DNA of 64,000 nucleotides, from NCBI GenBank assembly GCA_016787445.1, contig JAEUTQ010000024.1, forward strand, positions 1 through 64,000, written 5' to 3'. Source of the DNA: Bacteroidia bacterium. GTDB lineage: Bacteria; Bacteroidota; Bacteroidia; B-17B0; Aurantibacillaceae. This document shows, piece after piece, positions 15,101 through 17,300 of this stretch. The notes beneath the pieces were generated by a model. The model was given only the letters and a program-made list of their open reading frames with translations, was not told where the DNA came from and did not search any database. The position numbers were made by a program, and so were the translations under genes. Position 1 is the first letter of the stretch. Each line of letters starts with the position of its first letter.

Positions 15101-15108
15101 ACTGAAAA

Positions 15109-15131
15109 GGTTATCACAAAATGCGATAACC
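15109..15131. repeat. Palindrome with core TCACA-AAA-TGCGA (ORF6N-region family)
   Basis: GGTTATC / GATAACC arms around ACAAAATGC, nine bases after the rhomboid stop. The first 15 bases are identical to the hairpin at 16106-16128. Read on the minus strand it ends in a short T-run and sits where the terminator of the decayed DoxX copy would be. Confidence 0.75.
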
Positions 15132-15211
15132 TCTACCCAACATTTAGAATAATTTTTCTTAAGCGCTTTTGTTTCTTGTAAAAACTTGGCTTCATTTTCA
15201 GATAAACACCT
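15131..15211 (-). pseudogene. Decayed duplicate of the 3' end of the DoxX-like gene
   Basis: 81 bases matching 16911-16994, the last codons and 3' flank of the intact DoxX-like gene, in the same orientation and with only about ten differences. Both copies start with CTCTACC..AACATTTAGAATAATT and end with CAGATAAACACC. In this copy a base is missing at the CTGAAAATGAAGCC segment (intact: CTGAAAAATAAAGCC), which breaks the reading frame, and nothing of the upstream gene remains. The pair forms direct repeats about 1.78 kb apart, bracketing the ORF6N gene and the beta-barrel gene. Confidence 0.8.
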
Positions 15212-15213
15212 AA

Positions 15214-15250
15214 CCCGTTACGCAGTCTATATAGCTATCTGGATGTAACC
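15214..15250. repeat. Dispersed repeat with near-palindromic core, copy 2 (degenerate)
   Basis: CCCGTTACGCAG followed by TCTATATAG / CTATCTGGA (15226-15243) and TGTAACC. It is a decayed relative of the copies at 13527 and 16034. Confidence 0.55.
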
Positions 15251-15351: not shown

Positions 15352-15897
15352 ATGAAAAAAATTACGGATGAAATAAGTGTTGCTGACGAATTTGTATTAA
15401 GTAAAATTTACTTGCTAAGAGGGCATAAAGTAATGCTCGATAGTGATTTGGCGGGGCTTTACGGTGTTGAAACCAAACGATTAAAGGAACAAGTGAACCG
15501 GAATATAAAACGATTTCCTGCTGACTTTATGTTTGAAATGACTGAACATGAGTTAAAAATTTGGAGGTCGCAATTTGCGACCTCCAAATCACTAAAGATG
15601 GGTTTGAGAAGGCCACCATATTGTTTCACAGAACAGGGTGTAGCCATGCTTTCGAGTGTACTCAACAGCGAAAAAGCAATTGAGGTTAATATTATAATCA
15701 TAAGGGTATTTACAAAAATAAGGCAGACCATTATGGATGTCACACAACTTCGCTTAGCCTTTGAAGAAATAAAAAAGAAAACCGAAAACAACACCAAAAA
15801 CATTGAGGTGGTATTTCAATATTTAGATGAATTGCTTGAAAAAAACAAAAAGTCAGTAACACGCCAAAAAATTGGCTATAGGGTGTCAAAAAAATGA
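15352..15897 (+). CDS. ORF6N-domain DNA-binding protein
   Basis: A 181-residue protein. The ORF6N domain occupies residues 1-110 (IYLLRGHKVMLDSDLAGLYGVETKRLKEQVNRNIKRFPADFMFEMT... PPYCFTEQGVAMLSSVL), with a coiled-coil tail (AFEEIKKKTENNTKNIEVVFQYLDELLEKNKK). ORF6N proteins occur in phages and as stand-alone genes in many Bacteroidota and are thought to bind DNA. Codons 70-79 (IWRSQFATSK) are encoded by a near-perfect 29-bp palindrome. Related palindromes flank the gene on both sides. This makes self-recognition or autoregulation a possibility, though unproven. No phage genes are nearby. Confidence 0.88.
   Translation: MKKITDEISVADEFVLSKIYLLRGHKVMLDSDLAGLYGVETKRLKEQVNRNIKRFPADFMFEMTEHELKIWRSQFATSKSLKMGLRRPPYCFTEQGVAMLSSVLNSEKAIEVNIIIIRVFTKIRQTIMDVTQLRLAFEEIKKKTENNTKNIEVVFQYLDELLEKNKKSVTRQKIGYRVSKK
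15560..15588. repeat. 29-bp near-perfect palindrome inside the ORF6N coding sequence
   Basis: Arms TTTGGAGGTCGCAA (15560-15573) and TTGCGACCTCCAAA (15575-15588) around a single central T; all 14 pairs match. It encodes part of IWRSQFATSK in the ORF6N protein. Core TCGCA-ATT-TGCGA. Confidence 0.97.
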
Positions 15898-15934
15898 GTT
15901 CGTGTTGGTGGGATTTTAACCTATACAATTCCGG

Positions 15935-15966
15935 TTTTAATTAGGGCGAATTCGCCCTAATTAAAA
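15935..15966. repeat. 32-bp perfect palindrome
   Basis: Left arm TTTTAATTAGGGCGAA (15935-15950) is followed directly by its exact reverse complement (15951-15966). It lies 38 bases after the ORF6N stop. It could form a cruciform or, in RNA, a strong hairpin with an A-rich flank. Confidence 0.97.
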
Positions 15967-16021
15967 ATAAAGTCCCTGTAGCGGGATTTGAATCAGTTCT
16001 TTTACAACCCTAATTTTAAAG

Positions 16022-16037
16022 GGGTCGATTTCGACCC
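16022..16037. repeat. 16-bp palindrome GGGTCGA-TT-TCGACCC
   Basis: Seven matched pairs around TT. It resembles the GGTCG...CGACC arms of the ORF6N palindromes with the CA/TG centre missing. Confidence 0.85.
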
Positions 16038-16072
16038 GTTAGCGCGGTCCGGATAGCTATCGGGATGTAATC
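16034..16072. repeat. Dispersed repeat with near-palindromic core, copy 3
   Basis: CCCGTTAGCGCGG followed by TCCGGATAG / CTATCGGGA (16048-16065; 8 of 9 pairs) and TGTAATC. It is close to the copies at 13527 and 15214. Confidence 0.75.
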
Positions 16073-16105
16073 TGTTCACTTCATTCCAATTTTCATAATA
16101 AAAAA

Positions 16106-16128
16106 GGTTATCACAAAATGTGACAACC
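16106..16128. repeat. Palindrome with core TCACA-AAA-TGTGA
   Basis: GGTTATCACA / TGTGACAACC with one mismatch, loop AAA. It shares its first 15 bases with the hairpin at 15109-15131. If read as codons it would give RLSQNVTT, parallel to the RSQFATS encoded by the palindrome within the ORF6N gene. Confidence 0.85.
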
Positions 16129-16143
16129 TACGCGTATAAAACT

Positions 16144-16168
16144 TTGAGGTCGCAAATTGCGACCTCAA
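16144..16168. repeat. 25-bp palindrome with core TCGCA-AAT-TGCGA
   Basis: Arms TTGAGGTCGCAA and TTGCGACCTCAA around one A; all 12 pairs match. It differs from the palindrome inside the ORF6N gene mainly at the outer bases. Confidence 0.97.
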
Positions 16169-16911: not shown

Positions 16912-16937
16912 TCTACCAACATTTAGAATAATTATTC

Positions 16938-17300
16938 TTAAGCGGTTTTTGCTTCTTGTAAAAACATGGCTTTATTTTTCAGATAAACACCTATCCAGAT
17001 AAGCGCGAGGAAAACAGCCGCTGTCGGAAATTGCCCGCCGGCCAGTTCCATACAAATTGCGCCGCCCAAATAAGAACACAAGAGAAGAAAACCAACTTTG
17101 TGTGCTTTTGGAATCCAGAATAATACAACTGCTAAAAGCTCTATAACAGCAATAAGATTTAAATAACCGATGAGTCCTGATTTGGTAAAGCCTTCCACAA
17201 TGGGTTGCGCTTGCGTGAATTTCATAATGGCGCTCATTAATAACATTGCTGATGGTAAAGCCATTAATACGATGGAAATAATGCGTGTAGTTTTTGTCAT
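16938..17300 (-). CDS. DoxX-like small membrane protein
   Basis: A 120-residue inner-membrane protein with four helices (IISIVLMALPSAMLLMSAIMKF, GYLNLIAVIELLAVVLFWI, VGFLLLCSYLGGAICMELAGG, AAVFLALIWIGVYL). This matches the DoxX-like family, including the conserved SAxMKF near the N-terminus. ATG at 17300 is preferred to a TTG nine codons upstream. It is divergent from an HxlR-type regulator 137 bases away, an arrangement often seen for redox-responsive pairs, so the regulator probably controls it. A decayed copy of its 3' end is found at 15131-15211. Confidence 0.85.
   Translation of the reverse strand: MTKTTRIISIVLMALPSAMLLMSAIMKFTQAQPIVEGFTKSGLIGYLNLIAVIELLAVVLFWIPKAHKVGFLLLCSYLGGAICMELAGGQFPTAAVFLALIWIGVYLKNKAMFLQEAKTA

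Follow-up and report, generated by a model that had tools for sequence, protein, structure and literature searches.

The 64-kb stretch of DNA analysed here (64,000 nucleotides, hereafter the window) carries an intact ORF6N gene of 181 aa at 15352-15897 (PF10543, E 4.3e-34, 117.1 bits against a cut-off of 27.8) and, just downstream of it, two palindromes of different sequence, which raises the question of what these structures are and how they relate to the gene beside them. All the features of the locus are given on the plus strand. The first palindrome is a perfect one of 32 bp at 15935-15966, TTTTAATTAGGGCGAATTCGCCCTAATTAAAA, with CGAATTCG at its centre, and the second, GGGTCGA-TT-TCGACCC, occupies 16022-16037, its last base standing 140 after the ORF6N stop at 15897. 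The original prediction had placed both of them within 140 bases of that stop, and their presence and coordinates have been borne out. Perfect palindromes with arms of at least 12 bases and a loop of 0-1 were found three times in the window (15559, 15935 and 16144), always in the ORF6N region, and never in 12 first-order Markov simulations of the window; the 32-bp palindrome is far beyond chance, and its 20-bp core exists as a single copy in the 3.77-Mb genome, with up to two mismatches allowed. With arms of at least 7 and a loop of 0-2 the window holds 26 palindromes against a simulated mean of 21 (15-29), so that GGGTCGA-TT-TCGACCC, taken alone, is not above chance. The original prediction was right in linking the palindromes to the ORF6N gene and in calling for either selection or a recent origin, and its claim of at least six strong palindromes within 1.1 kb stands in part: ten palindromes of the whole window pass the threshold, three of them in the 1.1-kb region, where weaker members join them and where one lies inside the ORF6N coding sequence.

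Ordinary terminators, conserved at orthologous positions in relatives, had been named as the alternative, and here the outcome is mixed. A terminator scan (G+C-rich stem plus T run) returned neither 15935-15966 nor 16022-16037, and the terminator reading of the 32-bp palindrome was rejected on this ground; a homologous palindrome does occupy the orthologous place in a sister species, and two other members of the cluster, 16105-16129 and 16144-16168, are terminator-like on the minus strand, with T-rich stretches 3' of their stems. Rfam, at gathering scores, gave no family in the window except one tRNA.

As for the type of the two palindromes, they are the best matches in the whole window, on both strands, to the palindromes found inside KilA-N genes, with 31 identical bases out of 32 at 15935 and 26 out of 32 at 16014 (16014-16045), the next best reaching 22; judged by sequence, the 32-bp palindrome and GGGTCGA-TT-TCGACCC (compare AAGGGGTCGAAATCGACCCCTT in locus L289 and AAAGGGGTCGAATTCGACTCCTTT in L288) are KilA-N-type palindromes. 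Each of them lies within a probable decayed KilA-N fragment with a stop inside, fragment 1 at 15909-15971, reading WDFNLYNSGFN*GEFALIKNK, and fragment 2 at 16003-16080, reading YNPNFKGVDFDPLARSG*LSGCNLFT, where the in-frame NLYN.. and NPNF resemble KilA-N stretches such as WESIYNTDFNYGEFAIIKSQAG and NPDFKGVEIDPLLHE. A search with PF04383 gave no KilA-N match in the window's own genome, the frames of both fragments being interrupted by their stops. The orthologous locus of the sister species G008 contains an intact KilA-N gene between a rhomboid gene, 98% identical to the window's, and a DoxX-like gene; this KilA-N gene has TTTTAATTATGGCGAATTCGCCATAATTAAAA in its coding sequence and is preceded by a stretch orthologous to fragment 1, which reads NLYNSTFNYTEFGIIKE. 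Since no other place in the window matches as well as these two palindromes, since they stand in KilA-N-like frames, and since G008 has an intact gene with a relic beside it at the orthologous locus while the window's own genome gave no KilA-N match, they are read as remains of dead KilA-N genes, that is, most likely as the in-gene palindromes left from two such genes and not as free-standing copies.

The interpretation of the 32-bp palindrome as an operator in a KilA-N 5'UTR, drawn from the G008 match, was replaced once KilA-N-like frames had been recognized in both species. With KilA-N queries, tblastn gave E values of 0.002-0.004 for the relics against a 550-base target; against the whole window, a single query scored 0.02 or less at the relics, where no query attained 0.01, with chance hits elsewhere at 0.003, and as a proof of the relics this search was given up, its whole-window control not being above chance. 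At the DNA level, the 21-nt upstream flank of fragment 2 agrees in 15 of 21 positions (rank 113 of 63980), and that of fragment 1 in 12 of 21 (rank 5331 of 63980), which is not distinctive. The window species and G008 each retain one gene plus the palindrome of the other kind, since G008 has an ORF6N-type palindrome, an orphan, that shares 97% identity across 32 bases with the one inside the window's ORF6N gene. Two further features of the locus may be recorded. The 3' end of the DoxX-like gene (16928-17004) has a decayed duplicate upstream of the ORF6N gene, at 15149-15215, which the sister species shares, so that the ORF6N gene and an outer-membrane gene lie between direct repeats. Moreover, a separate recurring palindrome around GATAGCTATC (TCCCGATAGCTATCGGGA) is found at 16048-16065, and it occurs near genes in several genomes (L018, L019, L077).

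The intact ORF6N gene itself contains a perfect palindrome of 31 bp at 15559-15589, and its half-site, GGTCGCAA, is the one that the R..E helix of the encoded protein predicts under the code described below; the predicted recognition helix, TKRLKEQVNR (residues 41-50, from an AlphaFold2 model and covariation), is encoded at 15472-15501, and the protein is further predicted to have a long helix at its C-terminal end. The palindrome TTGAGGTCGCAAATTGCGACCTCAA at 16144-16168 is also of the ORF6N type, with a half-site equal to the in-gene one, and is possibly a second site or an ORF6N relic. In addition, two weak members were detected, AGGTTATCACAAAATGTGACAACCT at 16102-16132 (E 0.05), again terminator-like on the minus strand, and one upstream of the gene at 15105-15135 (E 0.004), which is conserved in the sister species.

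Such an in-gene palindrome is general among ORF6N genes. All four of those in the window's own genome have one of 29-33 bp at the same codons, with sequences that differ. ORF6N is present in 45 of the 61 genomes of the family, in up to 8 copies each, and 93 of its 96 full domains form at least 10 of 13 arm pairs, the centre falling at domain nucleotide 165 in 75 of them. When these 96 domains were recoded synonymously and scored alike, the mean was 8.1 pairs, and in 84 of the 96 genes the observed value was never reached in 200 recodings. Taking all sources together, 223 of 234 unique domains (242 domain hits minus helix-pattern failures and duplicates) carry the palindrome with at least 10 of 13 pairs. 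The addition made beyond the phylum set accounts for 116 domain hits (107 reach 10 pairs or more), and these come from records whose titles name other Bacteroidota, Omnitrophota, Planctomycetota, Nitrospinota, Elusimicrobia, Desulfobacterales and others, plus viral contigs; these phylum names are those of the record titles, many of which belong to metagenome bins and are possibly misassigned. The loci sampled were the best 80 of 587 genome loci, and the genome searches gave loci for the top matches alone, which biases the samples towards genes that match well.

Several individual ORF6N genes deserve mention. Two from the window's own genome (G000) run into contig ends (L001 and L002, at the ends of C45 and C66), and their near-identity around and after the palindrome suggests recent copies. 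Locus L009 (G007:C164) has three ORF6N genes in a row, no two of which agree in helix or in-gene palindrome. In viral contigs (L237, L238, L239, L204 and L206), divergent ORF6N domains have palindromes whose centres are not CAAxTTG, perhaps a second mode of recognition.

The way in which the arms change indicates the level at which the constraint acts. Among 43 diverse ORF6N palindromes (model R1; 60 were picked for diversity from 183, and 17 of these dropped by hand), 161 cells are changed on both sides, against 50 after shuffling, and out of 559 cells 3 are changed on one side only, to another standard pair, with 10 G-U in all. The arm mismatches of the 96 family domains comprise 10 G.T, 19 A.C and 32 others, with no preference for G-U, and both-sided changes without such a preference point to a constraint on double-stranded DNA. 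This bears on the explanation of the palindromes as RNA hairpins in the transcript, be it as an attenuator, a stability element or a terminator, which we consider very unlikely. Their hairpin potential is strong, and the T-rich stretches on the minus strand at 16105-16129 and 16144-16168 agree with it; nevertheless, a structured RNA should covary by way of G-U intermediates on the strand that is transcribed, and the ORF6N palindromes, with their 3 one-side against 161 both-side cells, behave otherwise. Neither the terminator scan nor the Rfam search speaks for a hairpin function of the 32-bp palindrome, and the helix code points to a reading of the DNA. For the KilA-N palindromes the mismatches (68 distinct palindromes) amount to 45 G.T, 17 A.C and 44 others, an excess of G.T over A.C which may mean an RNA-level component there, although 22 of the 45 G.T stand at the outermost pair. 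The hairpin formation considered in the original prediction is therefore disfavoured for the ORF6N palindromes and retains some ground for those of KilA-N.

The strongest regularity links the palindrome with the protein encoded around it. Palindrome bases are numbered outward from the centre (k4, k5 and so on), and domain positions 23, 24, 26 and 27, which in the window's protein are residues 42, 43, 45 and 46 (K42, R43, K45, E46), belong to the second of the two helices (30-37 and 41-50) that make up a helix-turn-helix predicted by AlphaFold2. The information shared between position 27 and k4 is 1.54 of 1.64 bits, and that between position 24 and k5 is 1.11 of 1.13 bits; the remaining columns among the first 52 share at most 0.53 bits with k4 and 0.43 with k5. 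In the family genes, residues 24..27 correspond to k5k4 as follows: R..E to CG (31 of 31), V..Q to CA (24 of 25), Q..R to GC (14 of 14) and N..K to TC (5 of 5); half-site classes other than the window's own include GGTCACAA, GGTGCCAA and GGTTCCAA. With the rule fixed on the family, residue 27 gave the correct k4 in 28 of 29 held-out genes from the rest of the phylum, and over all sources it predicts k4 in 217 of 220 cases, these being the ones among the 223 palindromes with E, Q, R or K as residue 27.

Comparison of closely related genes gives the same result. Among disjoint closest pairs at least 70% identical elsewhere that differ in the class of residue 27, k4 differs in 43 of 43, with both members as predicted in 42; at an identity of at least 50%, it differs in 102 of 103, with 100 as predicted. 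Pairs with equal residues 24 and 27 differ at k4 in 0 of 46 cases (30-70% identity) and 4 of 59 (at least 70%), and at k8 in 25 of 46 and 12 of 59, respectively. Along supported tree branches each test had 1-4 independent pairs, too few for significance, with none against the residue-27 rule; for residues 23 and 26 against k8 the outcome was mixed, again with 1-4 independent pairs each. The notion that paralogs avoid a shared specificity found no support: k5k4 is shared in 22 of 93 within-genome pairs and in 1100 of 4278 between-genome pairs (permutation fractions 0.38 and 0.72). Regarding the protein, the residues coded by the palindrome, 70-80, are modelled for ORF6N partly as a helix end and partly as a segment of lower confidence that precedes a strand, so a constraint on the DNA would spare the fold. 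Foldseek gave no match to this model at E of 0.001 or less; the best VIA-align match was a fragment of a Ski-like protein with a Z of 6.8, below the level that the tool takes as trustworthy, and Mbp1 was among the structural matches with a Z of 4.5. The sequence search of the PDB returned three matches at E 0.23-0.89, none of them relevant.

Most genes with a poor palindrome inside have a matching one upstream. Eight of the eleven (out of 234) with fewer than 10 pairs in the gene have a palindrome of 11-13 pairs out of 13 at -29 to -133 from the start, and in 8 of 8 it has the predicted k4; in the remaining three the in-gene palindrome, at its customary position, forms 9 of 13 pairs, a level which recoded genes also reach. 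Among the 213 genes with enough upstream sequence, the eleven included, an upstream palindrome was found in 42, with the predicted base in 31 and another in 11. For palindromes outside genes, the code of the neighbour is unmatched in 42 of 97, a set which includes the in-gene palindromes of neighbouring ORF6N genes.

KilA-N genes, to which the window's two palindromes are related, have their own palindrome and their own code. From several phyla and viral contigs, 109 of 112 genes show at least 10 of 14 pairs, with the centre 78 nt after the helix Trp codon in 107 of 112; 21 of the 133 hits were left out, having no helix pattern, and the viral loci were the best 80 of 141. The residue before the Trp is matched by T on both arms when it is Asn (62 of 64), by G when it is Asp (20 of 20) and mostly by C when it is Lys, Arg or His (both arms in 14 of 18), and for pairs of residues KN goes with GT in 31 of 31 and SD with GG in 18 of 18. 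Three KilA-N genes of viral contigs with an R-N-W helix (L397, L399 and L400) have no palindrome in the scanned stretch. Comparison across genes thus brings out, for these sequences, a definite palindrome type, a near-fixed place, symmetry, and a near one-to-one match of helix residues with half-site bases.

It could be argued that helix and half-site merely travel together, lying some 85-100 nt apart in one gene, and that their association involves no binding. The linkage is indeed close, and multiple copies together with horizontal spread would hold linked states together. Nevertheless, other nucleotides of the domain, even those nearer to the helix, are far less informative on residues 24 and 27 (their own codons aside), pairs with the same code often differ at k8 and rarely at k4, the upstream palindromes of the below-threshold genes match without exception, and a second family, KilA-N, follows the principle with other residues and other bases; this explanation is highly improbable.

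The distribution of the sites over genomes bears on a different possibility, namely that these are REP-like elements, mobile or repetitive, which happen to lie in these genes, the window's two being free-standing copies and not remains. In a covariance-model scan at E of 0.1 or less, in which up to 150 candidates were scored per genome, matches occurred in 10 of 10 genomes with ORF6N and in 0 of 10 without it. The 42 distinct sites of that scan (row count) comprised 23 within ORF6N genes, 10 within 300 bp of one, and 9 elsewhere, six of the latter forming one array (L274). In the window's own genome, of 3.77 Mb, there are 8 distinct ORF6N-type sites, 7 of them in or beside ORF6N genes and four of those 7 in the window. 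A genome-wide repeat was rejected on these copy counts, on the single 32-bp core and on the ten non-ORF6N genomes of the scan. REP/BIME repeats are clustered palindromic units in intergenic DNA, whereas the ORF6N-type palindromes are not spread over the genome and are mostly tied to ORF6N genes. Rickettsia palindromic elements likewise interrupt protein-coding sequence with palindromic DNA, but the genes that receive them are many and various, whereas those described here lie at one codon position of two families and fit the encoded helix. Additional copies and clusters beside ORF6N genes, and the undistinctive DNA flank of fragment 1, would be in keeping with elements of the REP kind; against the absence of genome-wide spread and the fit of the in-gene copies to the helix, this origin seems quite unlikely.

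Some palindromes lie outside ORF6N genes. Beside an rpoC-like gene (L274:3435-3950, G046 contig 31), seven different ORF6N-type palindromes occur without an ORF6N gene, in two tight clusters with 25-38 bp spacing within them and of types that, by eye, differ from those of the genome's own ORF6N genes. Downstream of ORF6N in L144, L149, L141, L100 and L114, 2-4 palindromes of different code classes lie in a row, and the spacing of about 42 bp seen between several of them gives the impression of stacking along one face of the helix. In the window's own genome (G000 C27:6628-6658, L277 near 6643), an ORF6N-like palindrome with an imperfect centre lies in a hairpin-rich stretch, with no ORF6N gene found nearby.

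A purely mutational origin of the symmetry has also to be weighed. At inverted repeats, one arm can be rewritten from the other by template switching, and symmetry could thus be kept mainly by mutation, without selection. The palindrome of G008 orthologous to the window's 32-bp one has 3 of 16 base pairs changed, on both arms, and the palindromes of the window stretch, the G008 relic and the intact G008 gene differ only at the same three adjacent pairs. A perfect 32-bp palindrome in a genome without KilA-N, together with these paired changes, suggests either a recent loss or an arm-to-arm correction by template switching. Of 20 ORF6N stretches that are partial or interrupted, 14 have a CA..TG-centred palindrome with 10-13 of 13 pairs; one more (L456) pairs fully, 13 of 13, around a different centre, and the last 5 lack a palindrome, their matches covering part of the domain or beginning after the site. 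Such retention in broken genes is compatible with selection as well as with template switching. Several facts are left unexplained if mutation is the main cause: the half-site bases track a helix encoded some 85 nt away, the palindromes keep a near-fixed place and length, and most below-threshold genes have a matching site upstream. As the main cause, template switching is rather unlikely; in addition to selection, it may well be at work, and such arm correction may help operators to change both halves at once.

The explanation that we find quite probable is that ORF6N and KilA-N proteins bind, and most likely repress, their own genes through the in-gene palindrome, the window's two palindromes being most likely the sites of dead KilA-N genes; physical binding, dimer formation and repression are what we infer from the comparison. 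As expected of an operator, the palindrome matches the recognition helix and the site lies inside or just before the regulator's own gene. The binding site would be the palindrome in the stretch coding for the part just past the recognition helix or, for a few ORF6N genes, one that shortly precedes the start codon. Presumably it is a dimer of the protein that would read this palindrome and, once bound, would lower its own transcription, either by blocking elongation or, where there is a second site upstream, at the promoter. The ORF6N gene with its palindrome at 15559-15589 would be the window's living example. Weighing against this explanation are the palindromes outside genes that miss their neighbour's code, the L274 array, the 4 of 59 same-residue pairs that differ at k4, the three viral KilA-N genes lacking a palindrome in the scanned stretch, the G.T excess of the KilA-N palindromes, and the perfect symmetry of the 32-bp palindrome in a genome with no KilA-N match.

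Known systems offer partial parallels. The auxiliary lac operator O2 lies in lacZ, where a helix-turn-helix protein reads a palindrome within coding sequence in a classic case of negative regulation; the ORF6N and KilA-N sites differ in that they belong to the sequence coding for the regulator's own domain, keep a near-fixed position across two families and several phyla, and co-vary with the recognition helix. A parS site lies inside spo0J (parB), so that the target of a DNA-binding protein is found in its own gene; parS is nearly invariant and serves segregation, whereas the ORF6N and KilA-N sites differ greatly among genes, together with the helix. The KilA-N/APSES DNA-binding domains, known from yeast Mbp1, are the domain family to which the window's palindrome type belongs. 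In the open-access titles and opening parts of abstracts that were covered, nothing was found on ORF6N palindromes, on an intragenic operator with autoregulation for them, on an in-gene palindrome or helix-to-site code in KilA-N/APSES proteins, or on an assigned DNA target for ORF6N or KilA-N proteins.

A further reading, which seems distinctly unlikely, sees these as self-addressed genes, in which binding to the own gene would, beyond repression, also favour its own copying or exclude incoming relatives of the same type. A stretch of about 120 bp would then hold both the reader (the recognition helix) and the target (the in-gene palindrome), so that one recombination event could swap the specificity with the match kept, and past occupants would have left their traces in the palindromes that outlive their genes and in the arrays made up of other types.

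ORF6N and KilA-N proteins are widespread in bacteria and phages. If autoregulation through the in-gene palindrome is true, the target of each such protein would be readable from its own gene, which would provide a natural protein-DNA recognition code with hundreds of examples, of use in predicting and engineering specificity. It would also mean that one coding sequence has been kept under two codes, that of the protein and that of the operator, across long evolutionary distances.
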